Shown: positions 893-61,676 of the stretch, in pieces
Position numbering within the stretch: position 1 is the first letter of the stretch
Layout of the letters: each line of letters starts with the position of its first letter
NCBI RefSeq assembly: GCF_009905375.1
Contig: NW_027417584.1
Location: 55,022-119,021, forward strand
Length of the DNA stretch: 64,000 nucleotides
Reading direction: 5' to 3'
DNA from: Apium graveolens
Lineage: Eukaryota > Streptophyta > Magnoliopsida > Apiales > Apiaceae
The notes under the pieces: generated by a model
Database searches by the model: none
Seen by the model: only the letters and a program-made list of their open reading frames with translations
What the model was told of the DNA's origin: nothing
Program-made: the position numbers and the translations under genes

Positions 893-3292
893 TCAAGTTG
901 ATTTTGGTACCCAAGTTTCCTTGGATCCTTCCTTGTTAGCTTTCTTTTTCTGTTTCTTAGGCTTTATCTCATTTGACTTAGGAATCTCAGATTCATCCTT
1001 AGTCATTTGAGTTGAGCCTTTGAAACCATTCATTGCAACAGAATTATCATGCATATTATGACTAATAGGAAATGGTATGATATGTGTAAACATGTTATTC
1101 CAGTAAGGCATGCTAAATGGCATTTGTGGCATACTATATGCAGCATAATAAGGATTAGGTGCAAATGGCATATTAGCAAACTGTGTATTCATGTTCTGTG
1201 TAGACATAACATTAATAGGCATGGGAGGCATGGCATTTATGTTAGGAAATTGAGGTTGCACAGACATGGAAGTAGGCATGGCAGATTTGCAGTTAACAGA
1301 CAAATGATTTACACTACCACACTTGACACAGATTTTTCTAGGAGCATATTTATCAGGTGTGTAGTTATTGTGTTCGTTAATCCCTACTTTACCATTCCTA
1401 TTTTTTTTCTTTTTAGTCTCTGTTTTTACCTCAATCTTTTCAAGTCTGTCACTTAACTGTTTGACAGTCATGTCACCAACATTAGCCTTTTTTCCTTTCT
1501 TAACTTGACTCGATTCTCCTGAAACAAAGTTCTTGCAAACAGACCCATACTTCTCATTCAGCTTAACAAGTTTGGCTTTACTGATAGGCTTGCTTACAGC
1601 CGACGGATGAGGATTTTCATCATTCGACGGATAACACCTTTTGTTATCCGACGGATGATCCTCATCATCCGTCGAGTCTACATCTGTAAGCACTCCATCT
1701 ACTAAATTTGGTTCTAGTTTCTCTTTGTTCTTTTTCCAGGATTCATCACAGAAAGACTCAATTCCTTGAACTTTGGTGATATGAGCATGGACATCCCTGG
1801 ATGTTTTCCATGCTTTAATCACCTCCTGTTCACGCTCGAACTGCTTCTTTAAAATTTCCTCTTTCTTCAAGGACTCAGTTAATTCCTCCTTGGCAATTTT
1901 ACACTCAATTCTTAATTTTTCAAAGTCAATAAACTGAGACTCAAGCACATTATTTCTCTCACTAAAAAACAAAGTGTTTTCTTTGATTTTAGCATTTTCT
2001 TTAGTAAGAGACTTAAGTGTAACACGCAAATGATATAACTCTGTAGACATGTCATTTATGACATCATTACACTCAGCTTTAGATAAATGTGCAAGATTTG
2101 TAGTAATTACCTGATTACTTGAAAAACTTGTTTCTGTCTCATCAGACTTGGCCATTAGGGCTAGATTGACATAGATGACATCTTCATCTTCATCCAGACC
2201 ATCTGCTGCCCAGTCATTTTCTTGTGTTATGAAAGCCCTTTCCTTTTGTTTGAGCAGCTCAAAGTATTTTTGCTTATAATCCACTAGCTCAAACTTTTTC
2301 TTACTGGAATCTGATTTCCTACACCCACTGGCAAAATGCCCTGCCAAGCCACATTTGAAACATTTGAATTTTGATTTATCCACCATGTTTCTATTTGGCT
2401 TGGCTGCTCCAAAGTTCTTCTTGAACTTGAGCTTGGAAAATCTCCTGGAAAGAAATGCTAGGTGTTCATCAATGTCCTCCATGTCATCTCGGCTCAAAGA
2501 ATCTTCACTTTCTACTGCAAGCCCCTTGTCCTTGTTCTCACAGACCCTTGAAGTTGATTCAACAGCTTCCATCTTCACTTCCTTCTCCTTTTCCAACTCA
2601 GCAACTAGTGCAATGGATCCTCCTTTCTTCTTTCCTCTCTCCATCCTTTCATCCTGCTCTATTTCAAGCTCATAGGTTTTCAGGATGCCATATAGTCTCT
2701 CCAATGTAAACTCCTTATAATCCTGTGAGTTTCTTAATGAGACCGTCATTGGTTTCCATTCCTTTGGAAGAGATCTAAGGAATTTCAGATTGGAGTCTTT
2801 TGTCTGATAGACCCTTCCATGCAACTTTAGAGCATTTAGTAGTTTTTGAAACCTTCTAAAAATGTCAGTGAGCGACTCACTTTCTTCATTGTGAAAATGC
2901 TCATATTGCTGAATCAAGAGCTGCATCTTGTTTTCTCTAACTTGCTCAGTGCCATCACAAATTATCTGTATTGTATCCCAAACATCCTTGGCAGTTTTGC
3001 AGTTGATAATGTTGTTAAACATATCTCCATCAACTCCATTAAACAGGATGTTCATGGCCTTTTTATCCTTCTTGACTTGTTCAATGTCAAGATCAGACCA
3101 TTCATGCCTTGGCTTGGGGACTGATGGCTCGTTTCCTGTTGCTGCTCTCATTGGAACATGAGAGCCTCTTTCTATGCAGTCCACATAGGCCTCATCTTGA
3201 GAAAGCAAATGAAGATGCATCTTTACCTTCCAATGATGGTAATTATCTTTATCCAGAAAAGGGATCTTGACTCCAACATCCTTTTTGTTCAT
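893..3292 (-). CDS. gag: Element A Gag polyprotein
   Basis: This 799-residue ORF starts at an ATG just inside the primer-binding site. The N-terminal 230 residues are a copia Gag/UBN2 domain (YHHWKVKMHLHL...; KEWKPMTVSLRNS). A CCHC zinc knuckle, CFKCGLAGHFASGC, sits at residues 311-324 and a second, CVKCGSVNHLSVNC, at 655-668. Between them lies a Glu/Lys-rich coiled-coil-like stretch; the tail is Met/Pro/Asn-rich. About 800 residues is long for copia Gag and fits Sireviruses. Four copies of the word CGACGGAT (either strand) cluster at 1601-1674 in an acidic Ser/Thr/Asp segment. It should form the capsid particle and bind genomic RNA. No disabling change was seen. Confidence 0.95.
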   Translation of the reverse strand: MNKKDVGVKIPFLDKDNYHHWKVKMHLHLLSQDEAYVDCIERGSHVPMRAATGNEPSVPKPRHEWSDLDIEQVKKDKKAMNILFNGVDGDMFNNIINCKTAKDVWDTIQIICDGTEQVRENKMQLLIQQYEHFHNEESESLTDIFRRFQKLLNALKLHGRVYQTKDSNLKFLRSLPKEWKPMTVSLRNSQDYKEFTLERLYGILKTYELEIEQDERMERGKKKGGSIALVAELEKEKEVKMEAVESTSRVCENKDKGLAVESEDSLSRDDMEDIDEHLAFLSRRFSKLKFKKNFGAAKPNRNMVDKSKFKCFKCGLAGHFASGCRKSDSSKKKFELVDYKQKYFELLKQKERAFITQENDWAADGLDEDEDVIYVNLALMAKSDETETSFSSNQVITTNLAHLSKAECNDVINDMSTELYHLRVTLKSLTKENAKIKENTLFFSERNNVLESQFIDFEKLRIECKIAKEELTESLKKEEILKKQFEREQEVIKAWKTSRDVHAHITKVQGIESFCDESWKKNKEKLEPNLVDGVLTDVDSTDDEDHPSDNKRCYPSNDENPHPSAVSKPISKAKLVKLNEKYGSVCKNFVSGESSQVKKGKKANVGDMTVKQLSDRLEKIEVKTETKKKKNRNGKVGINEHNNYTPDKYAPRKICVKCGSVNHLSVNCKSAMPTSMSVQPQFPNINAMPPMPINVMSTQNMNTQFANMPFAPNPYYAAYSMPQMPFSMPYWNNMFTHIIPFPISHNMHDNSVAMNGFKGSTQMTKDESEIPKSNEIKPKKQKKKANKEGSKETWVPKST

Positions 3293-3353: not shown

Positions 3354-4375
3354 TGTTAGTCCCTTAACAATATGACAAGAATTATAGAAGGGGGGTTGAA
3401 TGGAAATTTTGAAACTTTTTCTTGAAATAAAATGTTTTAACTCGAATACAAATATAAGTGTATTGATTAGCACAACGCGGAATAAAAACTTAAGTGAATC
3501 AAAACAAAAGTAATTAAAAATAAGAGTCTTTAAAAACTTTCTGGTGGATTTGAATGATTCCACCAGAGATATATATTATATATCGAGAGAACCCTGTGTG
3601 CAGAAATGCTCACAGCTGCTTACAACAATTAAACTTCTAAGACTACAGAGAAATGCTAAGAATCCTGCTTACAAATGTTTCTCTACTTTCTTGCTTAGAT
3701 CGATGGTGTCTTAGTTGCTACTACTTGGTTTATATATCACCAAGATTACAAAGTAATAAGACAAGATAATAAAACAAAAACTATCTAGTCTATTACAATG
3801 CTACTTCATTACTCTATTCCAGCATATTTGAATATCTTCATAATAGTATGGAAATGGCAATGCTTCTTGGTTCTCGAAAACCCAGTTGAATAGGCTACCA
3901 CATTCCATTTGCATCCACTCGACGCATGTAACTTTGTTGTCACTGTCTACAGATATTTGAATTCTTTATCCGTCAGGTTCATGATCATCCGTCGAGTTAT
4001 TGATCATCCGTCGGCTTCATTGTAGGTTATCATTCGGGTAGCAAACTGGCACTTGACTTCATTTCATTTATGCAGAATTACAAGACATCATCTATGTACA
4101 ATTAATCAACCTATTCTGCATATTTAGTTAAAGTCAACATGATTTGAATACTACTTATAGAATTTATGCAATGGTGACTGCAGAAATGTGTTACAGACTT
4201 ATTGTTACATAAGCTACTCACTCGATGGATAATAAGTCATCATCCGTCGGGACTATAATGAGTCATCCGTCGGGACTATAAATCTTATCCGTCGAGTGCT
4301 ACATTATTTCACTAAGTAAAATCTACTAAGGTGTTTTGTTCATGAAATCATCAAGTACACAACATATACACAACA
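3354..4375 (-). repeat. Element A 5' LTR (1022 bp)
   Basis: The LTR runs TG...CA on the minus strand. Its ends were set by the primer-binding site at one side and by the resumption of B's gag at 4376 on the other. Its inner end matches C's LTR (poly-C box, 'ttcaac' box). It holds a TATA-centred inverted repeat (3724-3744). It also holds five exact ATCCGTCG words at 3987, 4006, 4242, 4265 and 4287, with near copies at 3968 and 4223. Confidence 0.88.
3724..3744 (-). promoter_or_regulatory. TATA-centred stem-loop in A's LTR
   Basis: Sense strand reads CTTGGT-gatatataa-ACCAAG: a 6-bp inverted repeat around a 9-nt TATA-like loop. Homologous structures are in C, J, B and F. It is either the core promoter or an RNA hairpin; the sequence cannot tell which. 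Confidence 0.6.
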
Positions 4376-4547
4376 CTGTCAGAACTTGATGACTCAGTAT
4401 CAGATTTGTTATGAGAGCTTTTCCCTTGCCTTTCCTTAAGGTAGCTGCTTTGGGAGATTCCTCCTCAGCCATAAGAGCAACTATCCTTGACTTTCCTCCT
4501 TTCCTCTTGCTTCTTTGTTCCATCTCAAGTTCATGAGTCTTGAGCAT
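4376..4547 (-). pseudogene. gag: Element B gag, downstream fragment
   Basis: Read on the minus strand this continues B's Gag directly after the H insertion: the 12601 side ends in ...DEIYGML and this side starts KTHELEMEQ, the usual copia Gag order. It then runs through a Lys/Gly-rich linker (RSKRKGGKS, ALMAEEES). After KGKAL a 1-nt frame change appears, because the acidic Ser/Asp-rich segment typical of this position is in another frame. It is cut at 4376 by element A. The zinc knuckle is not in the window. Confidence 0.85.
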
Positions 4548-38348: not shown

Positions 38349-38597
38349 TGTAACACCCCTAAATCCGGGGTCGGGGATTCGGGTTGTCACGAGTTCCATT
38401 TCCCTTAATAACACCCAATCTTAATAAACAATCAACTACTCCGTACTGTGACCCCACAATAAACACACACATCACAAGTTATAGTCTCAGAGATGAATAT
38501 CTAAAAATAACACGAGTCATTTTATTCCACAATTATATGCCATTACACCTTAAAAGGGTTTCCGAATAAATTTACATTTCTTTGCCATTATTACAAT

Positions 38598-38744
38598 TCA
38601 TAAAGATACATAAGTCTGGTACATCAAAAGTTGAAAGCCTAGCCTATTGGTAGTTCCTACCTCAGCTACAGGGACATCAACGCCTATAGGAAACTGCGGA
38701 ACATTTCCTATCCACTCGCGAATTGGGAGCTTGGTCCTGTTCAT
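38598..38744 (-). CDS. Short U5 ORF in D's left LTR
   Basis: A 48-codon ORF begins MNRTKLPIRE, sharing Arg-Thr-Lys and Arg8 spacing with the histone H3 tail (ARTKQTAR). It lies behind the TTGCTCACCC box, as in E. A GAG|GTAGGA splice-donor-like site occurs at 38660. The right LTR copy (48223-48369) begins MNRTKLPIHE. Function unproven. Confidence 0.3.
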   Translation of the reverse strand: MNRTKLPIREWIGNVPQFPIGVDVPVAEVGTTNRLGFQLLMYQTYVSL

Positions 38745-40119
38745 CTTGTCTATCTGATGTTGTGTGATGAAAGAAGAAAGCAAGGGTGAGCAACAAGCCC
38801 ACCGAAATAGTATGTATAATAATTTACAATATATGAGCATTCTCATAGTACTCAAGAAAGTCTTGGTTAAGAAGAAATGAACCAAGTTGATATCTTAACG
38901 CGACCAAGTCACAAAATATTCAGTATATACATACATATATACTTTTCACAATCTTTGAAATCCTCTGACATGTATAATATACACAGAGTTCCAGTTTATA
39001 ACTGTATAAAAATATCGTTGCAAGGTGATCTCATATATCTAACCTTGTCTCAACGTTTTTCTGAAAATCTTTGACATGCACAAGATAATCATTTACTAGA
39101 TATAAGTTTAAAAGATGAAGTTACAAGATACTCCAATATACTTATATCTTTTCCGAATACTACTTGAACTACCACCGTTCAAGTTATAATTAGTTTCAAC
39201 AGTTCATCACACAGATGAAACTACAAGATAAGACTTGAATAGATTCAATCTTTGAAATATTATTGAATGAAATGAAGTTACGAGATACTTCATTAAGTCT
39301 CGATATATATATATATATATTCATATATATCTCCCATACATTTCCTGAAAACCTCTATCATGTAAAGTATGAACAGAGTTGCAATATCCAATGAATTTGG
39401 AACGAAAAGAATTTTGGCATAAACTCGATATCTTGCTGATCAGGCAAAGATACCAATAAGTAACCTTTTCTATAATAGATGGATGAATTCCTCGCCGGTC
39501 ATCACCCTGGCCGCATTCGGACCTCGCGCTAGACCGTTACCCGGCCACTCACGCGTGGATGGACTGTCACCCAGCTTCTTACACCTTCATAGACCGTACC
39601 CCGGCCTGTCGCTTATGCCGACTCAATTAGATGGACTTACTTCCCGAACATTGGGCAAGTAATCAAATTGTTTTCTCAAAACAGCAACCACGTTGCGAAT
39701 ATAAAATACACCACAGAGCCGGATCCCTCAGGTGTTGAGCGAGTATTTAAATCCCCTTTGAAAGAAAGATCTTAAATATATAAAAAAATGAGTTTTGGGA
39801 TCCGCTCTAACTTTTAAAATCATTTTGAAGACTCGGAAACATTTTTAAGAATGTTTGGAGAAATGCTGATTTAATGAAATAAATCAGTCCCGATATATTA
39901 GAAAATATCTGAATATTATTATTTAAATAATATTCCCATAAAAAATAATCTTTAAAAATAATTGAAGTAAAAGTTTTAAAACTCATACCTGAAATGAATA
40001 TTAATAACCAAAGATATACTTATACGAAAGTATGATCTTTATTTGAATAATCGAAAATAAGTTTGATTATCGAAACATTATTCTTTAATAAAATAAAGAA
40101 TATTATTTAATAAATAAGA

Positions 40120-47973: not shown

Positions 47974-48574
47974 TGTAACACCCCCAAATCCGGGGTCGGG
48001 GATCCGGGTTGTCACGAGTTCCATTTCCCTTAATAACACCCAATCTTAATAAACAATCAACTAATCCGTACTGTGACCCCACAATAAACACACACACCAC
48101 AAGTTATAGTCTCAGAGATGAATATCCAAAAATAACACAAGTCATTTTATTCCATAATTATATGCCATTACACCTTAAAAGGGTTTCTGAATAAATTTAC
48201 ATTTCTTTGCCATTATTACAATTCATAAAGATACATAAGTCTGGTACATTAAAAGTTGAAAGCCTAGCCTATTGGTAGTTCCTACCTCAGCTACAGCGAC
48301 ATCAACGCCTATAGGAAACTGCGGAACATTTCCTATCCACTCGTGAATTGGGAGCTTGGTCCTGTTCATCTTGTCTATCTGATATTGTGTGATGAAAGAA
48401 GAAAGCAAGGGTGAGCAACAAGCACACCGAAATAGTATGTATAATAATTTACAATATATGAGCATTCTCATAGTACTCAAGAAAGTCTTGGTTAAGAAGA
48501 AATGAACCAAGTTGATATCTTAACGCGACCAAGTCGCAAAATATTCAGTATATACATACATATATACTTTTCAC
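47974..48574 (-). repeat. Element D 5' LTR, first piece
   Basis: Matches 38349-38950 with scattered differences; interrupted by C at 48575. It contains the U5 ORF copy at 48223-48369. TTCAC (48570-48574) is the target duplicated by C. Confidence 0.92.
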
Positions 48575-48650
48575 TGTTAGGAATATATGTGCATTAGTTT
48601 GATGATATGTTTAACAAAACACTTAAGTAGAAATTCAGTGTCTGTAGCCT

Positions 48651-49005
48651 CAACGGATAAGACCACTTTGGCTATCCGTTGATGGTGTAGCTTTACTTAG
48701 AAATAAGTCTAGTGTTGTAGCATATTTCAGTCTCTGTATTTAAGATGTAATTCTTAGAAGTTGAGAGAAACTATGAGTCATGTTGACTACTAGAAGATAT
48801 GCAGATAGGAAGGCCAATTGTAAATATTTCATGCCTTGTAATTTTGTATAAATGAAGTGGTATCAACGGATGACTTAAAGACCTTCAACGGATGAGAAGC
48901 TAAGCTTCAACGGATGTCTCTAAAGCTTCAACGGATAACATCCTTCAACGGATGAGTGCATCAACGGATGAATGCTTCAACGGATGTTCTGTTGATTAAC
49001 CGTTG
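48651..49005. repeat. CAACGGAT word cluster in C's 5' LTR
   Basis: Nine exact copies of the 8-mer (either strand), most as ttCAACGGATgA-like units spaced about 15-25 bases, plus aaccgttg at the end. The same cluster is in the 3' LTR at 60734-61088. Further clusters are at 51292-51332, 53499-53622, 55513-55649 and 57615-57737. Confidence 0.95.
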
Positions 49006-49113
49006 ATAAGTGGTAGTTGTACCTACAAACAGAGGCACGTGGGTGAACAGAGATAACTGAAATGTGGCAGCCTAATTTCAGGAACATCAGAAAAAGCAGC
49101 CGTTCTACTCTAG

Positions 49114-49120
49114 TATAAAG
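49114..49120 (+). promoter_or_regulatory. TATA-box candidate in C's LTR
   Basis: TATAAAG after a CT-rich stretch; a second candidate is the TATA in the stem-loop 100 bases downstream. Confidence 0.4.
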
Positions 49121-49214
49121 AGACATTAAGTCAACAAAGTACTGGAGTGAACTGGAGAAGAAACAAGTGGAGATCTTACTTTATTATTTTATATATCCTT
49201 GTCTTCACTTGTAA

Positions 49215-49237
49215 ACTTGGTAATATATAAACCAAGT
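49215..49237 (+). promoter_or_regulatory. TATA-centred stem-loop in C's LTR
   Basis: ACTTGGT-aatatataa-ACCAAGT: a perfect 7-bp inverted repeat around a 9-nt loop, repeated at 61298-61320. Confidence 0.65.
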
Positions 49238-49590
49238 AGTAGCTAGTAATTAGATAAGAATTTTTCCAGAGCTGTTTAGAAAAATCTTGAGAGAAAAATT
49301 ATCTAGTTTGTACTAGGATGCAGCTGTGATCAAATTCTTAGATCACAGAATTTCTGAAATACCATCTCTGGTGGAACAACAAATCCACCAGAAAAGTTTT
49401 TAAAGGTTTATTGTGTTCTTTACATTTGTGTTTGAATATATATCTGTCTGTATCAGCTTAAAGCAATTCACACACTTGTTCATCTTGAACACACAGTCTT
49501 TATAAACTGCTCAAAACTTGAAAAAGTTTTGAGATTTACATTCAACCCCCCTTCTGTAAATCTCATTGTTAGTTCTCTAGAAATAACAAT

Positions 49591-49602
49591 TGGTATCAGA
49601 GC
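49591..49602 (+). promoter_or_regulatory. Element C primer-binding site (initiator tRNA-Met)
   Basis: TGGTATCAGAGC two bases after the LTR end. Confidence 0.95.
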
Positions 49603-49649
49603 AAGCTCTTGACAAACAAAGAGTTTAAAGATCTTGGAATCTAACAAAG

Positions 49650-52052
49650 ATGAGTAAGAAGGATATTGGAGTAAAAATCCCAGTTCTTGATAGAGACAGT
49701 TATCACCACTGGAAGGTGAAAATGCACCTTCATCTACTCTCCCAAGATGAAGGTTATGTAAACTGTATTGAGAATGGTCCTCACATTCCCCACAAAGTAG
49801 CCACAGTTGCTACGGCCACAATTGCTGTTGGTCAATCCATTCCAAAACCTAGAGCAGAATGGACAATGGAAGACACAGAAGAAGTCCACAAGGATAAGAA
49901 GGCTATGAACATTTTGTTTAATGGTCTTGACAAGGATATGTTTGATAATGTGATAAATTGCTCAACTGCCAAAGAGGTTTGGGACACAGTTCAGCTGCTG
50001 TGTGAAGGTACAGAACAAGTAAAAGAGAACAAGATGCAGCTTCTCATTCAACAGTATGAGTATTTTCATTTTGAAGAAAATGAATCTTTAAATGACACAT
50101 CTAACAGATTCCAAAAGCTATTGAATGGATTGAAGCTGTATGGTAGAGTGTACCAGGTGAAGGATTCAAATCTTAAATTCTTAAGATCCTTGCCAAAGGA
50201 ATGGAAACCCATGACTGTCTCCTTAAGAAACTCTCAGGATTATAAGGACTTCACTCTTGAAAGATTATATGGAATCTTGAAGACTTATGAACTAGAGTTG
50301 GAACAGGATGAGGTATTGGAGAAGGGGAGAAAGAAAGGAAGTTCAGTTGCATTGGTAGCTGAAAATGAGAGGGAATGCAGACAAGAAACTGTGAGATCTA
50401 CATCAAACTCCAAAGATGGTACAAGATATCAGGAATCAAGCAAAGGAAAAGAGCAAGTTGCTGAGAATGAAGACAACTCCAGTCAAGATGACTCTGATAG
50501 TGTTGATGAGCATCTTGCATTTCTGTCCAGGAGATTTGCAAAGATGAAGTTTAAGAAAAACACTAGAGCCACTAAACCTCATAAGAACATGGTGGACAAA
50601 TCAAAGTTCAAGTGTTTCAATTGTGGTATAAGTGGACACTTTGCAAGTGAGTGCAGAAAGCCAACTTCTGAAAAGAAGAAATTTGACCAAGTAGATTACA
50701 AGAAGAAATATTTTGATCTGCTCAAGAAAAAGGAAAGGGCTTTCATTACTCAAGAAAAAGATTGGGCAGCTGATGGAGAGGAAGAGAATGAAGATGTGGA
50801 GTATGTCAACTTAGCTCTCATGGCTGATTCTGAGGAAAATGAAGTTAGTTCATCAAGCAATCAGGTAACAACTCAGGTAATCACTACTGATGTAACACAA
50901 CTTACTAAAGAAGAGTGCAATGATGCTTTTAATGACATGTCTACTGAATTGTATCATTTGCGTGTGTCTCTTAAATCTCTTGCTAAAGAAAATAGTAGGA
51001 TTAAAGAGAACAATCTGTTTTTAAGTAATAGAAATGCTATGTTAGAAGATAAGTTGATTGACCTAGAGAAAACCAAGCTGCATTGTATATCTGTTGAGAA
51101 TGAACTAGCTGAATCTATTAAGAAAGTAGAAATACTTTCTAATCAATTAAAGAGAGAGCAAGAGGTGATTAAAGCCTGGAAAACATCTAGGGATGTTAGT
51201 GCTCAAATTGCCAAGGTCCAAGGAATTGAATCATTCTGTGAAACTGGCTGGGATAAAAACAAAAAGAAACTGGAATTAATTGATGGGCTGTCAACGGATG
51301 TGGAATCAACGGATGATGAAGGTTATCCGTTGAAGGTTCCTCAATTAAAACAGGCAGATGTTTCTAATAGTGAAAATCTAAAGAAACTCAACAAAAAGTT
51401 TGGTTCAACTTCCAAGAACTTTGTTAAAGAAGAAGCAAGCACATCCAAAGATGTCAGTAAGGTGAATATAGGGCACATGACCTTAGAACAGTTAAATAAT
51501 AGGCTCAAGATGGTTGAGGATAAAAAGGAAACTAAAAGAAAATCTAACAGAAATGGGAAGGTAGGTGTTAACAAACATAACAATTACACACCTGATAGGT
51601 ATGCTCCTAGAAAAAGCTGTGTGCATTGTAGTAGTGTTAATCATCTATCTGCTAATTGCAAATCTATTAAGAAAACCCCCATAACTGTACCCTCTTCCAT
51701 GCCTAACATGTCTGCATCATCTTTACATGCTATGCCTACTATGTCTCAACAGAATCCTTATGCACATTTTGCAAACATGCCATATTTTAACAATCCTTAT
51801 CTTGCTGCATTTAGTATGCCTCAAATGCCATACAATATGCCTATGTGGAATAACATGTATGCACAATCCATGCCTTATCATATTCCAAATGTGCTAAATG
51901 ATTCTGTGACTAACCCTACACCTCAACCAACTACATCCAAGACCAAGGTTGACTCAAAGTTACCTAAGTCTAGAGATGCAGGAGGAATGAAGTCTAGGAG
52001 AAAGGCTAACAAGAATGGACCCAAGGAAACTTGGGTACCAAAATCAAATTGA
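49650..52052 (+). CDS. gag: Element C Gag polyprotein
   Basis: This 800-residue ORF starts at ATG 49650 (MSKKDIGVKIPVLDRDSYHH). The N-terminal copia Gag/UBN2 domain covers about residues 1-230. The first CCHC knuckle (CFNCGISGHFASEC) is at residues 322-335 and the second (CVHCSSVNHLSANC) at 657-670. A charged coiled-coil-like region (about 420-530) lies between. The last 100 residues are Met/Pro/Asn-rich (NMPYFNNPYLAAFSMPQMPY), then a Lys-rich end. Three CAACGGAT words at 51292-51332 encode STDV/STDDEGYPL. It aligns along its whole length with A's Gag. It ends with TGA at 52050-52052; pol follows in the +1 frame. Gag forms the particle in the cytoplasm and packages RNA. Confidence 0.97.
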   Translation: MSKKDIGVKIPVLDRDSYHHWKVKMHLHLLSQDEGYVNCIENGPHIPHKVATVATATIAVGQSIPKPRAEWTMEDTEEVHKDKKAMNILFNGLDKDMFDNVINCSTAKEVWDTVQLLCEGTEQVKENKMQLLIQQYEYFHFEENESLNDTSNRFQKLLNGLKLYGRVYQVKDSNLKFLRSLPKEWKPMTVSLRNSQDYKDFTLERLYGILKTYELELEQDEVLEKGRKKGSSVALVAENERECRQETVRSTSNSKDGTRYQESSKGKEQVAENEDNSSQDDSDSVDEHLAFLSRRFAKMKFKKNTRATKPHKNMVDKSKFKCFNCGISGHFASECRKPTSEKKKFDQVDYKKKYFDLLKKKERAFITQEKDWAADGEEENEDVEYVNLALMADSEENEVSSSSNQVTTQVITTDVTQLTKEECNDAFNDMSTELYHLRVSLKSLAKENSRIKENNLFLSNRNAMLEDKLIDLEKTKLHCISVENELAESIKKVEILSNQLKREQEVIKAWKTSRDVSAQIAKVQGIESFCETGWDKNKKKLELIDGLSTDVESTDDEGYPLKVPQLKQADVSNSENLKKLNKKFGSTSKNFVKEEASTSKDVSKVNIGHMTLEQLNNRLKMVEDKKETKRKSNRNGKVGVNKHNNYTPDRYAPRKSCVHCSSVNHLSANCKSIKKTPITVPSSMPNMSASSLHAMPTMSQQNPYAHFANMPYFNNPYLAAFSMPQMPYNMPMWNNMYAQSMPYHIPNVLNDSVTNPTPQPTTSKTKVDSKLPKSRDAGGMKSRRKANKNGPKETWVPKSN

Positions 52053-52056
52053 TTGA

Positions 52057-55000
52057 TTTTATGGTGTGCAGGGAAATAGAAGAAATCTATGGTACTTGGA
52101 CAGTGGCTGTTCAAGACACATGACAGGAGATTTCTCCCTGCTCACAGAGTTTAAGGAAAGAGCTGGCCCTAGCATAACCTTTGGAGATGACAGCAAAGGG
52201 CTTACTATGGGATATGGCTTGATTTCAACAAGGAATGTCATCATTGATGAAGTTGCATTAGTTGATGGTCTCAAACATAACTTACTGAGCATCAGTCAAC
52301 TATGTGATAAAGGGAATACACTTTCCTTCAATTCTGAAGCCTGTGTTGTCACTAGTAAGAAAGACAACAAAGTGGTTCTAACTGGAGTTAGAAAAGGAAA
52401 TGTGTACTTAGCTGACTTCAACTCTGCAAATGCAGAATCTATTACTTGTCTCTTCAGCAAAGCAAGTTCAGTTGAGAGTTGGCTATGGCACAAGAAGCTA
52501 TCCCATTTGAATTTCAAGACAATGAATGATCTAGTCAAAAAGGACCTAGTAAGAGGAATTCCTCTTGTTGAATTCTCAAGGGATGGTTTGTGTGATGCTT
52601 GTCAGAAAGGCAAACAAAGGAAAGCATCATTCAAAAAGAAGCTTGAAACAACAATTGATGAACCATTACAGCTGCTACATATGGATTTGTTTGGACCAGT
52701 CAATGTATTGTCAATTGCAAGAAAAAGATATTGCTTAGTGATTGTAGATGATTTCTCAAAGTTTTCATGGGTCTATTTTCTTGGATCAAAGAATGAAGCA
52801 AGTGAAATCATTATCAATCACATCAGGCAAGTCAATAATCATCCTGACCTGAAGGTTAGGAATATCAGGAGTGACAATGGAACTGAGTTCAAGAATTTAT
52901 CAATGAGGCTGTTCTGTGAAGAAAATGGAATCATGCATGAGTTCTCAGCTCCAAGAACACCTCAGCAAAATGGGATAGTTGAAAGAAAGAACAGATCTTT
53001 AATTGAGGCTGCCAGAACAATGCTTGAAGAATCAAAGTTACCAACATATTTCTGGGCTGAAGCTGTTAATTGTGCCTGTTTCACTCAAAATATCTCTTTG
53101 ATCAATCAAGCTAAAGGCATGACTCCTTATCAGTTGTTCAAGAGAAGAAAACCAACTCTAAACTTTCTTCATATCTTTGGATGTAAATGCTTTATACTAA
53201 GGAATCAATCTGACCATAAAGGGAAGTTTGATGCAAAGGATGATGAAGGGATATTTGTTGGTTATTCAGCTGGAAAATCTTATAGGGTCTACAATCTAAG
53301 AACCAACATTGTTATGGAATCTGTGCATGTTGTGTTTGATGATAAAAAGATTGATGGACTAACAGATGAGGGACATTATGAGAGACTCAAATTTGACAAC
53401 ATTGAGATATATTGTGATGATAATGAAGAGGAGACTGATGGAGATAACACTTCAAAAGGGATTCAAAACATGCCCTTGGATAATGCACAAAATACTGCAT
53501 CCGTTGAAAGTCAGAATTCTGCATCCGTTGATAGAGGCAATGCAGTATCCGTTGAAAGACATGGTGTATCATCCGTTGAAGTACTAAATGAAGCATCCGT
53601 TGATCATAGTTTATCAACGGATAATCGATTTACATCATCAGTTGATAGAACTCCAAGTTCCCTGCAAAGGACCAACAACTCAGGGGGAGTTTCAACTAGT
53701 CAACACTCTGTCTCACATCATGACAATACTGAGGCCACCTCATCTAGAGCACATCTTCCACTTCAAAGGAAATGGACCAAGAATCATCCCTTTGAACTGA
53801 TCATTGGTGATGCATCATCTAAAGTGCAAACAAGAAGAGCTACTCAAGATGAATGTCTGTATAGTAGTTTTCTATCTCAGGAGGAACCTAAGAAAGTGGA
53901 AGAAGCCTTATTGGATCCAGATTGGATATTAGCTATGCAGGAAGAGCTAAACCAATTTGAGAGAAACCAAGTTTGGAAGCTGGTACCCAAACCAAAGAAA
54001 AAGAGTCCTATTGACACAAAATGGGTATTCAGAAACAAGATGGATGAAAATGGCATTATCATAAGGAATAAAGCCAGATTGGTTGCTAAAGGCTATTCTC
54101 AGCAAGAGGGAATAGATTTTGATGAGACATATGCTCCTGTTGCAAGACTTGAAGCCATCAGAATTTTTCTAGCCTATGCAGCTCATGCCAATTTCAAAGT
54201 CTATCAAATGGATGTCAAGAGTGCATTTCTAAATGGGAAATTAGAGGAAGAAGTCTATGTAAGTCAACCTCCAGGATTTGAAGATCCAAATTTTCCAGAC
54301 TATGTATATTATCTGTTGAAAGCACTCTATGGACTGAAGCAAGCACCTAGAGCCTGGTATGAAACCTTATCAAAATTTCTTTTGGAGAATCACTTCACTA
54401 GAGGTACTGTTGATAAAACTCTCTTCTTTAGGAATGTTAATGGCTCTAGTATACTTGTTCAAATTTATGTAGACGACATAATATTTGGTTCTAAAGATGA
54501 TAAACTTTGTAAAAAGTTTGCTAAGCTAATGCAAAGTAATTATGAAATGAGCCTTATGGGAGAACTAACCTATTTTCTTGGTTTACAAATTAAACAAGTT
54601 AGTAATGGAATTTTCATTAGTCAAACTAAATATATTCATGATCTTTTAAAGAAGTTTGACTTAATGGAATGTTCATCTGCAAAAACTCCCATGGCCACTG
54701 CCACCAAACTTGAATTAAATAAGACTGAAAGGTCTGTGGACATTACAAGTTATAGAGGCATGGTTGGTTCACTTTTATATTTAACTGCTAGCAGACCAGA
54801 TATAATGTTTGCTACATGTCTGTGTGCTAGATTTCAAGCTGATCCTAGGGAGTCTCATTTAATAGCTATCAAAAGGATTTTCAGATATCTCAAGGGTACA
54901 CCAAATTTAGGTATTTGGTATCCTAGAGAATCTGGCTTTGATCTAATTGGTTATTCAGATGCAGACTATGCAGGTTGCAAAATAGACAGGAAAAGTACAA

Positions 55001-55410
55001 CAGGCTCCTGCCAATTCCTGGGAAACAAGCTTGTATCATGGTTTAGCAAAAAGCAAAATTCAGTCTCTACTTCTACAGCTGAGGCTGAATACATTGCTGC
55101 TGGAAGTTGCTGCTCTCAAGTGTTATGGATGAGAAATCAACTCCTTGACTATGGACTTCATGTTGATAGAATTCCTATCTTTTGTGACAACACAAGTGCC
55201 ATAGCCATAACAGAGAATCCTGTACAGCACTCAAGAACCAAGCACATTGATATCAAGTACCACTTCATTAGGGAGCATGTCATGAATGGTACAGTGGAAC
55301 TACATTTTGTTCCAAGTGAACAACAAATTGCAGACATATTTACCAAGCCACTTGATGAATCAACATTCACAAGATTAGTAAATGAGCTAGGTATGCTTAA
55401 TTACTCTTAA
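52057..55410 (+). CDS. pol: Element C Pol polyprotein
   Basis: About 1114 codons are open to the stop at 55408-55410; no ATG heads the frame, which opens at 52057. Numbering from the GTG at 52066: protease LDSG (D12), GAG-pre-integrase ([10 protein letters not shown] ... [10 protein letters not shown]), integrase D207, D270 and E306 (35 residues between the last two, as in DD35E). RT has [10 protein letters not shown] and catalytic YVDD at 801-804. RNase H has [18 protein letters not shown] and the CDNTSA segment. Between integrase and RT is a linker with ASVE/ASVD repeats encoded by a 24-bp-spaced DNA word. All hallmark residues are present. Frame is +1 relative to gag, with TGTGCAGG at the opening, so a splice or recoding event is needed. 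Confidence 0.96.
53499..53622. repeat. 24-bp periodic word array inside C pol
   Basis: ATCCGTTG occurs at 53499, 53523, 53547, 53571 and 53595, exactly 24 bases apart, then inverted (CAACGGAT) at 53615. Between the words the filler sequence has diverged. Translated: ASVE, ASVD, VSVE, SSVE, ASVD, STD. Confidence 0.92.
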
Positions 55411-55960
55411 AATTCATGTCCTTATTGCAATTTGAATTGAAGCCTGAAATATATTAGTTGCTAGAACAAATTTGACTTTTAACAAAGTTTATACCATCAA
55501 CGAATGTTTCCTATCCGTTGAAAGTCAAAATTGCTCTATCAACGGATATTCATTATCCGTTGAAAGACAAATACATTTCTGGAATTTTTATCCGTCAACG
55601 GATAAAACTGAAGTACCTTTCAACGGATGACAATTTGCCTTATCCGTTGAAATGTCACATCAGTCGATTCAGGTGTTTCACCGGCGTTGATTCTATTTTC
55701 TTAACCGTTGATACTCATACATACATCTGTATGTATTGGTTTTAAAGGTAGTTGTTAGAATACTTACAGTTTATTCTTAAACGGCTGAAATTCACTAACA
55801 TATACTTATTGATTAATCTTTTACTAATTTTTTTTTTTTGAAAGCATATAAGCCCTTCTGATTTTTCATTTTTACTTTACGCTTTCTTAAAATTTCAAGC
55901 ATTTACCATTTTCTCTCTGCAAAACCTTTAAGTTATTCTCTGCAATTTCTACTCACAACA
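55411..55960 (+). promoter_or_regulatory. Spacer between C pol and third ORF, word-rich
   Basis: 550 bases without a gene. Six exact CAACGGAT/ATCCGTTG words at 55513-55649, including the near-palindrome atccgtcaacggat, with relaxed copies before and after. A T-rich run (near 55827-55842) and CT-rich stretch precede the ATG at 55961 and resemble a splice acceptor region or promoter. How the third ORF is expressed is unknown. Confidence 0.5.
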
Positions 55961-58900
55961 ATGGCACCAGTCGTGAAAATTATGTCTCAATCTGGGTTCA
56001 TCTATGAGAAGAACAATTTCATAGCTTTGGTAGAAAAGAATGAAGCCCATTCAGACTATCACAAAATGATGGACTTCATCAAAAACTGTAAACTTAGCTA
56101 TGCAATGCTGGAAGCCCCAATGATTTACTGTGAAGTAGTTGAGGAGATTTGGACAACTGCTGAGTTCAACTCCATAGATATGACTATCTCCTTCACTCTC
56201 AAAGGTAAAAATCACTGTATTAACTGTGATGATTTACAAGCATGTTTTAAATTACCTGAGAACAATGCCATGACACCACACACTGATAATGATGTATCCA
56301 GCATGTTAGATTCCATAGGTTATTCTCTTAACTCTGCTAGTTTAGGGAGTATTAGAAGAAAAGGCCTTAGGAAAGAATGGAGTTTTCTTGGGGATGCCTT
56401 TATAAAGGTTTTCTCTGGGAAAATTAGTAATTTTGATGCCATAACTTCATCTCTTGTTAATATGCTCTATATGCTTGTTTCTGATAGGTATTTTAACCTT
56501 AGCAACTATGTGATGCTAGAATTGGGTACTAGATTAGGTAACAAAGCTAATAGACCTAATAACATCTATTATGCTAGATTCTTTATGTTATTGGCTAACC
56601 ATGTTGCTGAAGGTTTGGTCATAATCAATGAGAATAATAAACTCAAGTGCTGGGCACAAGAGAAAAGAGTTCTTGCAGATTTATTGAGAATGGATCTCAA
56701 CAGCAGTGTGCCATTGGTATATTTACCAATCATGAATGCACCTCAGGTAGGTGAGGTAATTGCTTCTACAACTCCTACTTCTTCCAACCCCTCTATTTCT
56801 TTATCTTCTAGTGTGGCCATGAAATCTGTGGCAATGCCCCAACAGATTTCTACCAAGGTCACCAAAACTAAACTTTCAAAATCAAAGACAAAGAAAACCA
56901 CCTCTGTTGTTTCTCAAAAGACAACAGTTGTAACACCAACCATTAACCCTGAGGGGAGTGAACAGGGTGTGAGTGGTGAGGGGAGGGGTGAACATCAAAG
57001 AAACCCCCAGGATAAGGAAGGAGAGTTAAGTGCTTCCCAAGCTAGCCAAGCCACAGTTTCTCAAAAAGCTGTGGTGGTTGAAAAGGTATCTAGCACATCC
57101 CTAGTTGCATCCTCCCAAAAGGATGTTACTATTGAAAATAGTTCCCAACCAGGAACACAGAACAAACGAGGGAGGGACACTGAAGCCAAACACTCACCAA
57201 CAAAAGCTTTTATTAGAAGAAAGAAGGCTAGAACCCAATCTTCTACACAGGGTGCACACACTGCACAGATACATCCATCTGTATCTATGCCTTCTCAAAC
57301 TCAGTTTGATGTGGCTCCAATAAATGTGGAGTCACAGCCCCATTCTCTCACAATAATCACACATCAATCACCAAACACTTCATCACCATCTCTGGATGTG
57401 GATATGTTATTCCCATCAATTCCTGATTCTCCCTTTTTACAACTCAGGGAGGAGCCCCACTCAAATACAGGTGATCATCATCTCTTAGATGATTTGTTGG
57501 ATCACCCGCAAATTCTTTCAGATATAATTGAAGGATCTGTGTCACCACATCTCAAATCAATCTACACAGATTCAACAGTTATATCACTTTCAATTTCAAC
57601 TTCTTTTCCTTCTTCAACGGATATCACTCATCCGTTGACAAGTGGTTGCTCTTCAACGGATAAGCTTAACAGCAGTTATCCGTTGATAACATCAGTTTCA
57701 CCTTCAACGGATATTCCACATCCGTTGATAGTCTCTCCACACATAACTGAATCAATTCCAAGTGTAGAAGACATGAATACTGTGCAATCACTCTTAGGAT
57801 TGAGGGAAGGGAGTGAAAATTTGAGTGAGAGGCTGGGTTGCTCCCAGGCAAAAGGAGAGATTGAGAGCTCAAAAATGCATGCTATTTCTTCCAGCCTGGC
57901 AAAAGTAAGTGAGAGGAGTACCACCTTAGTAGGTGAAGGTGAGGGAGTGAGTTGTGTGAGCCAGGGGCAGCCCCTGATGCAAGAAAATAGAGAAAAAGAG
58001 AGAAAGGCAGGTACAGTAGATATAAGGGTGGAACCAGCCATTGCTAGTGAGTCAATGATTGTGGATGATGCTGAAAAGGAAATACAATTTCAGCAACATT
58101 ACAAAGCTGTAATTGATAACATTTCCTTGGATGCTGACACTTTTACTCATCCTGTGTCAGCCTATCAAATGTTGGCTGCTCAGGGCAATGAGGAGGCAGA
58201 AAAGACACTACATCTAGTACACACAACAGAATCTCTTCAAAGGGATAAAGCTGCTATTAATAAGATGCCTTCTACAGCTGGTGAGCCATCTGAGGAATTT
58301 GGAGTAAATTCTGATGATGATGACTCTGTTTCTTTTGATGGAAGCATGAACTTAGGGGGAGATGAAGGCCCTAGTTCAATTCCAAATCTACCTGAATGGG
58401 CTTTGACAAAGGAGTATAGATCAGGGGAATTCAATGTCTCTTTAGTCAAACAAATCAACACTATTCAACAGGCCATTCAGAACACTTCACATGCGAGTAT
58501 CAAGGCTATCCTTCAAGCTCACCTGGACTCACTGCATCTCATGAAGTTGCAGCAAGTAAAGCAGAATCTGAGTATGGATGATCTCAGGAAGGATATTGCT
58601 GACTTGAAATCCTACAGTTCTGAAAAATTAGATTCAGTCATGCCCTATGGTACATTGCAAGACTTGGTTTTGAGATTGAAAAAGGAATCAGTTACTGAGA
58701 AAAGGCTGGCCAAGTTGGAAGACAGAGTTCAAGTTATTGAAGATTCTGTGGCCACCATTCTTCACAACCAACAATCTCAAACCAGTCTCCTAATGCAGCT
58801 GGCAAAAGCACAAGGCTTGACCCCTCTCCTTGATGATAACAAAAAGGGGGAGAGTAAAAGGGAAGGGGAAGGAGAGCCATCTACAAAAATCAAAATATCT

Positions 58901-60106
58901 AAAGTGCTAGTTCCTGCCATCACTACTTCTCCAATCATTCAAATCAAAGGAAAGCCTGATGGAATTGATTTGATTCAGCTAGCAGCAGCTGAAATTCAAG
59001 TGAAAGAGCAAAGGAGGAGAATTGATGAAAGGTTGCAACTGTTGTTTGGCTCTACACAAGATAAATCAACATCTGTGAAATATAGCACAAAGATTGAACC
59101 AATCAACATGGAGCTCAAGCCAGTAGGGAGACATAAGGATGGAGAAGCTTCTTCTAAAGAACTACAAGCTATAATTCTCAAGCCCAATAAAAGATCCAAT
59201 AAGGACTCTACAAAGAATCCTTTAAAAGAAGTGGACTTTCCTCCTCCAAAAGCTGATGAGAACAAGCTTTTAGGTAGGAGTATTGCTTATCTCAAAGAGA
59301 CCATGGATGAGGCTGTAAGGAGAAATAGGGATATTATCTCTAGAGAGGGAAAGAGCATATGTGTGATGCAAGGACATCCCAAATTCTCAATAGCCAAGAA
59401 GGAAGAAGTCAAGCAATTAAAGGCTGACAAAAGAGCACAAGCAAAGCTTGAACAACAGCTAAAGTCAAGTCAAGTTGAAGAAGAGAAAGGAATTGAAGTC
59501 AGGGGTGAAGACAAGATTGCAAACCTAGATGAGGTTTTTGGGAGTATATTTGGTGAGAGTATGGAAGAAAGAGAGGAATGGCAGAAGGGAAACAGAAGAA
59601 AGGCCAAGGCACATAGAAGGAGTGAAGATAATACTGAAGTAACCAAATCTATATCTAAACCACTACCTTCCATACCTGAACCTCTTATTGCTAATCCCAC
59701 TATAAACATCCATGGTGAACCAATCATTCCAAAAGAGGAACCTATTGATTGGGACACCATCAAATTGCCTACCTTTCTAACCACTCTTCCACTACCAAAG
59801 AAACAGAAAAGAAAACCCAAATCTACACCTCCCATAACCTCTAAGAAATTCACTCAAAAACAAAAGCCTAAGCCTAAGCCATCCATTTCTAAAGATGATT
59901 ATGTTCACATCTGTGACATAAAAGAAATTTCAGACATTGAACTCTATCTGGATGAGCTGGAGGATGTAAGAGGAATAGCTGCTTACAGACAGCTACCAGA
60001 GAGATTAGTGTTCAAATACAAAGGAGCTGGGGAAAGAACATGGCCTCTCCACAGGATTCTGAATGAAGGCTACTCTACCTTGATTAGAGTCTTTTCATCT
60101 ATATAA
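55961..60106 (+). CDS. Element C third ORF (Sirevirus additional ORF, 'env-like' position)
   Basis: A 1381-codon ORF starts ATG 55961 (MAPVVKIMSQSGFIYEKNNF). The first 250 residues form a compact, conserved-looking domain (DFIKNCKLSYAMLEAPMIY, FTLKGKNHCINCDDLQACF, YFNLSNYVMLELGTRLGNK, RFFMLLANHVAEGLVI). A long Ser/Thr/Pro-rich, presumably disordered part follows (about 260-680), with the six CAACGGAT words at residues 552-593. Then come charged helices, one coiled-coil-like (about 880-960, KRLAKLEDRVQVIEDSV), and Lys-rich segments. I see no signal peptide, furin-like site or membrane segment, so an envelope role is not supported by sequence. It ends at TAA 60104-60106, but the frame reopens after it. 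The function is unknown. Confidence 0.85.
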   Translation: MAPVVKIMSQSGFIYEKNNFIALVEKNEAHSDYHKMMDFIKNCKLSYAMLEAPMIYCEVVEEIWTTAEFNSIDMTISFTLKGKNHCINCDDLQACFKLPENNAMTPHTDNDVSSMLDSIGYSLNSASLGSIRRKGLRKEWSFLGDAFIKVFSGKISNFDAITSSLVNMLYMLVSDRYFNLSNYVMLELGTRLGNKANRPNNIYYARFFMLLANHVAEGLVIINENNKLKCWAQEKRVLADLLRMDLNSSVPLVYLPIMNAPQVGEVIASTTPTSSNPSISLSSSVAMKSVAMPQQISTKVTKTKLSKSKTKKTTSVVSQKTTVVTPTINPEGSEQGVSGEGRGEHQRNPQDKEGELSASQASQATVSQKAVVVEKVSSTSLVASSQKDVTIENSSQPGTQNKRGRDTEAKHSPTKAFIRRKKARTQSSTQGAHTAQIHPSVSMPSQTQFDVAPINVESQPHSLTIITHQSPNTSSPSLDVDMLFPSIPDSPFLQLREEPHSNTGDHHLLDDLLDHPQILSDIIEGSVSPHLKSIYTDSTVISLSISTSFPSSTDITHPLTSGCSSTDKLNSSYPLITSVSPSTDIPHPLIVSPHITESIPSVEDMNTVQSLLGLREGSENLSERLGCSQAKGEIESSKMHAISSSLAKVSERSTTLVGEGEGVSCVSQGQPLMQENREKERKAGTVDIRVEPAIASESMIVDDAEKEIQFQQHYKAVIDNISLDADTFTHPVSAYQMLAAQGNEEAEKTLHLVHTTESLQRDKAAINKMPSTAGEPSEEFGVNSDDDDSVSFDGSMNLGGDEGPSSIPNLPEWALTKEYRSGEFNVSLVKQINTIQQAIQNTSHASIKAILQAHLDSLHLMKLQQVKQNLSMDDLRKDIADLKSYSSEKLDSVMPYGTLQDLVLRLKKESVTEKRLAKLEDRVQVIEDSVATILHNQQSQTSLLMQLAKAQGLTPLLDDNKKGESKREGEGEPSTKIKISKVLVPAITTSPIIQIKGKPDGIDLIQLAAAEIQVKEQRRRIDERLQLLFGSTQDKSTSVKYSTKIEPINMELKPVGRHKDGEASSKELQAIILKPNKRSNKDSTKNPLKEVDFPPPKADENKLLGRSIAYLKETMDEAVRRNRDIISREGKSICVMQGHPKFSIAKKEEVKQLKADKRAQAKLEQQLKSSQVEEEKGIEVRGEDKIANLDEVFGSIFGESMEEREEWQKGNRRKAKAHRRSEDNTEVTKSISKPLPSIPEPLIANPTINIHGEPIIPKEEPIDWDTIKLPTFLTTLPLPKKQKRKPKSTPPITSKKFTQKQKPKPKPSISKDDYVHICDIKEISDIELYLDELEDVRGIAAYRQLPERLVFKYKGAGERTWPLHRILNEGYSTLIRVFSSI

Positions 60107-60469
60107 AAGGATTCTGGCTTTACCAGAACTGCCAAGACTGAAATTCTCAACAAGATTGCCAATATAAGGAAAACTTAGAGGGAGCCCAATGCTTTACCCA
60201 GGACTTTACTCATTCAAGAAAGGGGAATTACAATTCACAAATCACCTCATTGGTTGATGGAATTTAGAGATGATAAAGGAGTCAGAAGATTTTTCAGACT
60301 TGAAGACCAACTCAAGATTGCCAGCAATGAAACTCTCAAGGAAATGCAATCTAAGTTGGATATCAGTGTTGAAGATGAAGCTGAATTCTTCAGACAACTC
60401 CAACTCCAAATTGAGGAAAATGACAAAGGGCTAGGAAAGAGAACCAGGGAACAAAGAAGAAAAAGATGA
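60107..60469 (+). pseudogene. C-terminal continuation of C's third ORF behind two stops
   Basis: The same reading frame as 55961-60106 continues past TAA (60104) and a TAG (60176-60178) to a stop at 60467-60469. Protein-like content runs through (HKSPHWLMEFRDDKGVRRFF, FFRQLQLQIEEN). The ORF was probably about 1500 codons before the two nonsense changes, or the short form is functional and the tail is relic. Confidence 0.75.
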
Positions 60470-60657
60470 TTTGCTCAGGCTAAAGGAGTATCCTTGGAAA
60501 TACTGTAAATCTTCAATTTCCTCCTAGTACATACATTTTTGCAGCATTTTCAAATTTCTACTTAGTTTCAATTCATATATCTGTTAAGTGTTTTGTTATC
60601 ATCAAGTTAACCCTGAATTTATGCCTACAATTCTTATAGACATAAATAGGGGGAGAT
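60470..60657 (+). promoter_or_regulatory. Element C 3' untranslated region and polypurine tract
   Basis: Short AT-rich stretch ending in aaatagggggagat, the polypurine tract adjoining the 3' LTR. The same tract motif is seen in F. Confidence 0.88.
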
Positions 60658-61671
60658 TGTTAGGAATATATGTGCATTAGTTTGATGATATGTTTAACAA
60701 AACACTTAAGTAGAAATTCAGTGTCTGTAGCCTCAACGGATAAGACCACTTTGGCTATCCGTTGATGGTGTAGCTTTACTTAGAAATAAGTCTAGTGTTG
60801 TAGCATATTTCAGTCTCTGTATTTAAGATGTAATTCTTAGAAGTTGAGAGAAACTATGAGTCATGTTGACTACTAGAAGATATGCAGATAGGAAGGCCAA
60901 TTGTAAATATTTCATGCCTTGTAATTTTGTATAAATTAAGTGGTATCAACGGATGACTTAAAGACCTTCAACGGATGAGAAGCTAAGCTTCAACGGATGT
61001 CTCTAAAGCTTCAACGGATAACATCCTTCAACGGATGAGTGCATCAACGGATGAATGCTTCAACGGATGTTCTGTTGATTAACCGTTGATAAGTGGTAGT
61101 TGTACCTACAAACAGAGGCACGTGGGTGAACAGAGATAACTGAAATGTGGCAGCCTAATTTCAGGAACATCAGAAAAAGCAGCCGTTCTACTCTAGTATA
61201 AAGAGACATTAAGTCAACAAAGTACTGGAGTGAACTGGAGAAGAAACAAGTGGAGATCTTACTTTATTATTTTATATATCCTTGTCTTCACTTGTAAACT
61301 TGGTAATATATAAACCAAGTAGTAGCTAGTAATTAGATAAGAATTTTTCCAGAGCTGTTTAGAAAAATCTTGAGAGAAAAATTATCTAGTTTGTACTAGG
61401 ATGCAGCTGTGATCAAATTCTTAGATCACAGAATTTCTGAAATACCATCTTTGGTGGAACAACAAATCCACCAGAAAAGTTTTTAAAGGTTTATTGTGTT
61501 CTTTACATTTGTGTTTGAATATATATCTGTCTGTATCAGCTTAAAGCAATTCACACACTTGTTCATCTTGAATACACAGTCTTTATAAACTGCTCAAAAC
61601 TTGAAAAAGTTTTGAGATTTACATTCAACCCCCCTTCTGTAAATCTCATTGTTAGTTCTCTAGAAATAACA
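60658..61671 (+). repeat. Element C 3' LTR (1014 bp)
   Basis: Same length as the 5' LTR with about three base differences; followed by the TTCAC target copy. It includes the word cluster (60734-61088), TATAAAG (61197-61203) and stem-loop (61298-61320). Confidence 0.97.
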
Positions 61672-61676
61672 TTCAC

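Follow-up and report, generated by a model that had tools for sequence, protein, structure and literature searches.

Short repeated words of the kind described below are already known from Sireviruses, where RM boxes lie in the long terminal repeats (LTRs) and upstream of env at 8–32 copies per element; the parts of the original description drawn upon here leave open both the function of these boxes and the role of the env-like third open reading frame (ORF) (PMC2829016). A second comparable system is that of VANDAL21, in which, according to the relevant portions of PMC5735166, the protein VANC21 binds to dense arrays of a 9-bp word within its own family and causes a local loss of CG methylation and a wider loss of non-CG methylation. 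In the sections of PMC13317346 that bear on the subject, anti-silencing is treated for Vandal, and Sirevirus appears only as a small-RNA reservoir. Here we analyse a 64,000-nt stretch of celery DNA (Apium graveolens, assembly GCF_009905375.1, contig NW_027417584.1, positions 55,022 to 119,021), referred to as the window. It contains a Sirevirus-like Ty1/copia retrotransposon, element C, in which a 10-nt word, the box, recurs without change in LTRs, spacer and genes, and part of a related element, element A, that has a different word.

A ten-base box repeated along element C

A first-pass annotation of the window had counted about 39 copies of an 8-nt word, CAACGGAT, in element C: nine in each LTR, three in gag, six in pol, six in the pol–ORF3 spacer and six in ORF3. 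The recount gave exactly 39 within 48575–61671, with an identical distribution over the parts, and 42 in the window on both strands; in the comparison with shuffled sequence that had been proposed as a check, 100 dinucleotide shuffles of the whole window averaged 0.86 copies and never exceeded 3. When the second LTR is left out there are 30 copies; 300 dinucleotide shuffles of 48573–60655 produced 0.027 on average and never more than 1. The word is enriched in LTR, gag, pol, spacer and ORF3, each taken alone, and the 3′ linker is free of it. Among the 8-, 9- and 10-mers of 48573–60655, this word and its one-base shifts rank first. While the repetition was thus correctly recognized, the length was not: because a T precedes and an A or G follows the 8-mer in all 30 copies of the 5′ LTR and internal part, the unit is the 10-nt TCAACGGATR, which is invariant in 30 of 30, with variable positions outside it. 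The same region has 10 one-mismatch words, compared with a mean of 4.5 (range 0–10) in 60 shuffles. This total lies at the top of the shuffle range, and at most a few of them can therefore be decayed boxes; the four that adjoin arrays (48998, 53637, 55498 and 55703) may be such.

The boxes are clustered, occur in both orientations (17 forward and 13 reverse in the 5′ LTR and internal part) and extend over coding and non-coding parts, as had been noticed at first pass. The seven-box LTR array is situated approximately 130–250 bp upstream of a TATAAAG motif (49114), and the five reverse boxes of pol are spaced at exactly 24 bp. The word is not self-complementary; forward boxes followed by reverse ones are 7–16 bases apart, and many neighbours are direct repeats. 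In the ORFs, forward boxes translate as STD, and reverse boxes as [HY]PL in gag and ORF3 and, in another frame, as SV[DE] in pol. The gaps between cluster centres are 2397, 2248, 2020, 2090 and 3328, and the chance of so large a minimum gap is 6.5e-4; we give the even spacing little weight, because it was noticed after the fact and falls together with regions under weak constraint. A single recent tandem duplication, which the earlier annotation had named as a finding that would undo its claim, is ruled out as the origin of the boxes, since flank identity (30–40% inside clusters and 29% between them) is close to the 27% of random stretches.

Synonymous-codon shuffling of each ORF (2000 trials) yielded at most two boxes, against the three, six and six observed in gag, pol and ORF3, and boxes contain six of the seven ACG and four of the five CCG codons of the three ORFs. 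Low CpG content is expected in sequence that has been methylated over a long time. The observed/expected (o/e) CpG ratio of element C is 0.11, and boxes account for 30 of its 49 CpGs (for the three ORFs 15 of 23, for the LTR 9 of 12 and for the spacer 6 of 14). Taken in its entirety, the pol–ORF3 spacer is not poor in CpG (o/e 1.1); at the arrays, which have a GC content of 34–40%, the ratios are 0.72 in the LTR, 1.38 in the spacer and 0.30–0.58 in gag, pol and ORF3, to be set against the CpG island that marks RM boxes. In element A the nine boxes, with two CpGs each, hold 18 of 39. An intact box of element C has one CpG by definition, and the data therefore say that boxes were kept while surrounding CpGs were lost, which fits selection on the word, a local lack of methylation, or both. 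The constraint acts on the DNA and not on the protein, because the box is invariant between nearly random flanks, is present on both strands and in LTR, spacer and ORFs, and accounts for so many of the CpGs.

The 1014-bp LTRs of element C differ at three positions (48854, 49368 and 49490), none of which is within a box, and the target-site duplication (TSD), TTCAC, is at 48570–48574 and 61672–61676. An unoccupied copy of the surrounding repeat is found at 38349–39514; its halves match the flanks of the element (47974–48574 and 61672–62232) and overlap by the five TSD bases. Three Sirevirus features are present: the junction of 5′ LTR and primer-binding site (PBS), CA-ATTGG-TATCAGAGC, at 49587–49602; a polypurine tract (PPT), AGGGGGAG, 10 bp upstream of the 3′ LTR; and the C-rich integrase signal, CAACCCCCCTTCTG, whose run starts 43 bp before the LTR end, its position being compared roughly. 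Together with the position of the boxes in the LTR, they bear out the earlier likening to the repeated motifs of Sireviruses. Sirevirus linkers hold three to five PPTs each, according to the consulted part of PMC2829016; clustered identical PPTs were not found in element C, whose 3′ linker has a single octamer, and three further octamers are located in pol and ORF3 (53682, 58354 and 58845). Because the 3′ linker is without a PPT cluster, we use the term Sirevirus-like. The nearest named full-length relative of the gag is celery protein P0001 (79% identity), and a protein in ENA matches it at 90% across 79% of the query. As a side observation, the frame of ORF3 goes on past its stop at 60104–60480, where it resembles by eye the C-terminal end of a carrot ORF3 and is broken by a further stop; compared with carrot relative P0118, the ORF3 of this copy is the shorter one.

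Table 1. Positions of elements C and A, their genes and their boxes within the window
Feature	Position	Strand	Evidence or details
Element C, full-length Sirevirus-like Ty1/copia with third ORF	48575..61671	+	LTR pair, TSD, Pfam matches, empty site
Element C 5′ LTR	48575..49588	+	LTR comparison; TATAAAG at 49114, C run at 49546
LTR boxes 1–2, inverted pair	48651..48681		+ 48651, - 48674; word search
LTR array, seven direct boxes	48864..48985	+	48864, 48886, 48908, 48929, 48946, 48962, 48978
Element C gag ORF, 800 aa	49650..52052	+	Retrotran_gag_2 3.4e-21, zf-CCHC 1.1e-06 (Pfam)
gag array, variable C-terminal part	51292..51332		+ 51292, + 51307, - 51325; read STD, STD, YPL
Element C pol ORF, 1114 aa	52066..55410	+	RVT_2 3e-78, rve 1.9e-16 (Pfam)
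pol array, integrase–RT (reverse transcriptase) linker	53499..53622		five - boxes (53499-53595), + 53615
pol–ORF3 spacer array, six boxes	55513..55649		- 55513, + 55540, - 55555, + 55596, + 55621, - 55642
Element C ORF3, 1381 aa, candidate reader protein	55961..60106	+	
ORF3 array, three inverted pairs	57615..57727		read STD-HPL, STD-YPL, STD-HPL
Element C terminal PPT, AGGGGGAG	60648..60655	+	starts 10 bp before 3′ LTR
Element C 3′ LTR	60658..61671	+	same nine boxes as 5′ LTR
Element A gag, open frame	899..3292	-	62% identical to element C gag
Element A gag boxes, CGACGGAT	1601, 1625, 1649, 1667		first three reverse to gag, 1667 on gag strand; same place as element C gag array
Element A 5′ LTR, outer edge approximate	3354..4440	-	boxes 3987, 4006, 4242, 4265, 4287, all CGACGGAT

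There are other repeats in the window. Direct repeats of approximately 1.46 kb (4547–6009 and 11144–12595; 99% identical), next to which a gag fragment with 38% identity to the element C gag begins at 12595, are probably the LTRs of another nested element; each has one lone CAACGGAT at the same place (5275 and 11861) and no array. A 4-kb direct repeat, 97.6% identical, occupies 20542–24575 and 30031–34065.

Box words of element A and of Apiaceae relatives

Element A is represented at the left edge of the window by its gag, the start of pol, a 5′ LTR ending at 3354 and a PBS identical to that of element C; its ORF3 and pol linker fall outside the window, and the comparison of boxes covers LTR and gag. 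At both places the boxes of the two elements differ by one base, a second word that had gone unnoticed at first pass. Enrichment in other family copies, the other condition that the earlier annotation had set for its claim, was addressed in part through element A, whose boxes stand at the corresponding places with another word, and through protein relatives. The words are exclusive: element A has nine copies of CGACGGAT and none of CAACGGAT, and element C has 30 of CAACGGAT and none of CGACGGAT. One-mismatch CGACGGAT words are present in element A at 1646, 3920, 3968 and 4223. On the gag tree the groups of element C (7 rows) and element A (8 rows) are adjacent, with strong support.

More distant relatives were reached as proteins only, and their box words were inferred from peptides. 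In gag and ORF3, positions 1–9 of a forward box and 2–10 of a reverse box are translated, and a pair of tripeptides thus fixes the word except for its last base; among 2000 random tripeptide pairs, 21 could be decoded at all. STD with [HY]PL gives TCAACGGATR and STD with [HY]PS gives TCGACGGATR, both of which are also seen as DNA in the window, while TCAACTGATR (STD with [HY]QL) and TCAACGAAAY (STK with [VI]SL) come from peptides only. This peptide code lets the evolution of the boxes be followed from protein databases without DNA.

For gag, the first 90 of 107 relatives were aligned with the two gags of the window, and 20 of the 92 rows were dropped for having fewer than 30 residues at the array. 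The remaining 72 comprise 17 of PL type, 18 with PL and others, 15 of PS type, one with PS and others, five of Q type and 16 with none of these. The label of PL with others is often due, in the celery group, to a single HQL beside the array, and the mixed rows of carrot (HPL, SMD, YPS) resemble arrays in which the change is incomplete. Seven of the 16 untyped rows, six of them from Heracleum, show by eye a fourth pattern of STK or STD with VSL or related tripeptides; the other nine, which are without the pattern, are eight distant proteins (24–33% identity) and one celery protein. When the labels were mapped on a tree of the 51 rows that cover enough of gag, 13 changes were required, compared with 32.2 after shuffling. 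The Q type needs two, and a single change suffices for the fourth type and likewise for the outgroup; the cruder labels PL, PL-mixed and PS need 6, 6 and 5. One carrot-like gag, P0014, is deposited as 'interaptin-like [Rhizophagus irregularis]' and is perhaps plant root DNA in a fungal assembly.

The ORF3 alignment, with 22 relatives, shows three of these pairs again. P0109 and P0117 have STD with [HY]PL, which is also partly present in P0130, P0131 and P0133; carrot P0118 and P0127 have STD with HQL three times over; and celery P0108, P0115 and P0122 have STD, PTD, SMD or related tripeptides with HPS or YPS. In Heracleum the array is lost or altered in 11 of 12 rows, and the fourth word fits the remnants only partly (STK..ISL). 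Carrot accordingly has QL in gag (P0070 and P0071) as well as in ORF3, its other gags being PL or mixed, and celery has PS in gag (e.g., P0005, P0007 and P0011) and in ORF3. This pairing rests on species and type, except for P0009, P0109 and P0142, which probably lie on one contig (contigs of equal size, 17854) and whose gag and ORF3 are both of PL type. The pol array is recognizable as SV[DE] runs in P0137, P0139, P0168 and P0042 and as shorter runs in P0142, P0145, P0144 and P0073. It is not seen in 14 of 17 examined linkers (20 were found by pattern) or in P0158, P0165–P0167, P0236, P0206, P0171, P0152 and P0211. Taken from these sequences, the same places appear to have switched in concert to further words among the Apiaceae relatives, which points to a reader protein that co-evolves with the boxes.

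Triple-box patterns occur in 5 stretches of viral contigs and in 110 of GTDB contigs; they were taken as chance or unrelated repeats, because tblastn with gag, pol and ORF3 on these 115 loci found no relative. No relative of gag or pol was confirmed in IMG/VR.

Possible readers of the boxes

We suggest, at about an even chance of being right, that the boxes are double-stranded DNA sites for a sequence-specific, co-evolving protein, likely ORF3, in a VANC-like anti-silencing system of a Sirevirus. The grounds are that a 10-mer is exact at 30 dispersed places regardless of flank, strand, coding status or frame, and that element A has another word at LTR and gag. In such a mechanism, one reader protein would recognize every box of its own element, and a change in its specificity would be followed by the boxes at all places. 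The reader, most likely the element's own ORF3, would load on arrays approximately 2–2.4 kb apart (one interval being 3.3 kb) along the whole element, and once bound would exclude or remove DNA methylation locally, such that the 13-kb element stays expressible. A VANC-like system would need sites along the entire element, including its genes, and would favour the survival of CpGs there; both are seen.

As for ORF3, its N-terminal domain (aa 1–263) has a predicted fold that weakly resembles VANC21, and hydropathy indicated no transmembrane stretch. Neither DUF1985 nor DUF287 appeared in an hmmscan of the 19 members of an alignment of ORF3 relatives (A2) at E values up to 1, and for this reason we do not file ORF3 as VANC but only as possibly VANC-like in action. 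Four of the 19 have a weak Pfam match to Transposase_32 (best E 0.013). Searches of ORF3 against BFVD gave nothing below E 0.36; against PDB sequences, the N-terminal domain matched only 8jsz, a uridylate cyclase (E 0.028), and the A2 profile had no match.

An alternative that we consider possible, though unlikely, is that a host transcription factor, for example of the MYB type, binds at the boxes and drives LTR transcription, the internal copies being extra enhancers or a promoter for ORF3. The LTR array stands upstream of the TATA box as RM boxes do, the spacer array is upstream of ORF3, CAACGG and CAACTG fit the MYB-type core YAAC[GT]G, and one of the 19 ORF3 relatives has a weak Pfam match to a Myb/SANT-like domain (PF13837, E 0.019). 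However, there is no promoter that the arrays in gag and pol could serve, and one host factor would not read all of the words, because the CGACGGAT boxes of element A and the decoded TCAACGAAAY do not fit the core. Concerted switching is also hard to square with a conserved host factor.

It is improbable that the boxes act as hairpins in RNA or single strands, for packaging, dimerization or recombination or as a source of small RNA, a role that has been discussed for the palindromes of maize Sireviruses. Inverted pairs do fold far better than shuffles (z scores of -7.1 in the spacer, -7.15 in ORF3, -3.6 in gag and -4.1 for the LTR pair), but the seven-box LTR array (z 0.0) and the pol array (z -1.1) fold no better, and a hairpin as the common function was rejected. 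Moreover, complementarity alone would suffice, so that each hairpin could have its own word and a fixed word at 30 places would be unneeded. Among the three functions listed at first pass, protein binding with evasion of silencing is the best supported, and packaging is not a function common to all arrays. Separately, the arrays of ORF3 (57605–57735) and the spacer (55505–55654) would, as RNA, fold into highly stable hairpins (z about -7), from which small RNAs could arise in addition to any function as DNA.

Neutral concerted evolution, in which short tandem repeats spread by slippage or template switching without function, is very improbable: the pol array does vary in length by 8-residue steps among close relatives (P0137, P0139 and P0168), but flanks are near random, exact words are kilobases apart in all three ORFs, and CpGs of the ORFs are mostly lost and yet kept in boxes. 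Selection on the peptides, with the DNA word as a by-product of STD, HPL and SVD repeats in variable protein regions, is hardly credible, for although every gag and ORF3 box reads STD or [HY]PL in phase, nine boxes in the LTR and six in the spacer encode nothing, the reverse box of pol is translated in a different frame, and codon choice inside boxes is extreme.

Returning to a reader encoded by ORF3, a wider proposal would be that a lineage of LTR retrotransposons runs VANC-type anti-silencing, with its ORF3, of a type long regarded as envelope-like, as the DNA-binding reader, a word in LTR, spacer and three genes that was rewritten several times, and rival families in one genome whose readers are not shared. 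We hold this tentatively, at somewhat less than an even chance. If each ORF3 reads its own word, sequence-specific anti-silencing would exist beyond Mutator-like DNA transposons, and the multiplication of very large Sireviruses would become easier to understand. The pairing of ORF3 and word is open to a direct test, since the words switch together and the window itself supplies naturally paired variants.

Comparison with known systems

The RM boxes, as presented in the sections of PMC2829016 used here, are like the boxes of element C in being exact short repeats with a CGG/CCG core, in their placement in the upper LTR before the TATA box and upstream of the env-like ORF, and in that the word differs between elements. 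They are palindromes, however, whereas the boxes of element C are non-palindromic half-sites in direct or inverted arrays, and they are tabulated in the LTR and linker and, in two elements, also where env begins, whereas element C also has arrays in gag, in pol and deep in ORF3 (PMC2829016). Two further differences are that related elements in one window have different words at the same sites, and that CpGs of the ORFs are nearly absent outside boxes.

The VANDAL21/VANC21 system shares with element C a short word (9 bp compared with 10) that is dense in its own family and differs between related families, as far as the cited portions of PMC5735166 go; this trait is seen here in DNA for two elements and in peptides for others. 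A local effect on CG methylation would be expected here as well, and the reader's fold is one that the model of the ORF3 N-terminal domain weakly resembles. In contrast, VANDALs are Mutator-like DNA transposons whose motifs are mainly non-coding and in one orientation (PMC5735166, same portions), while element C is an LTR retrotransposon with coding and non-coding boxes in both orientations. In sunflower, CG methylation of SIRE elements falls dramatically between the LTRs while CHG methylation stays high, a profile compatible in part with anti-silencing here, although it concerns another plant family and the passages available name no SIRE motif or protein (PMC12844716). Within the literature surveyed, what is new in element C is the presence of arrays inside gag, pol and deep ORF3, the half-site form, the apparent concerted switching, two words being present in a single window, the refuge of CpGs in the boxes and the lead from a predicted VANC-like fold for ORF3.

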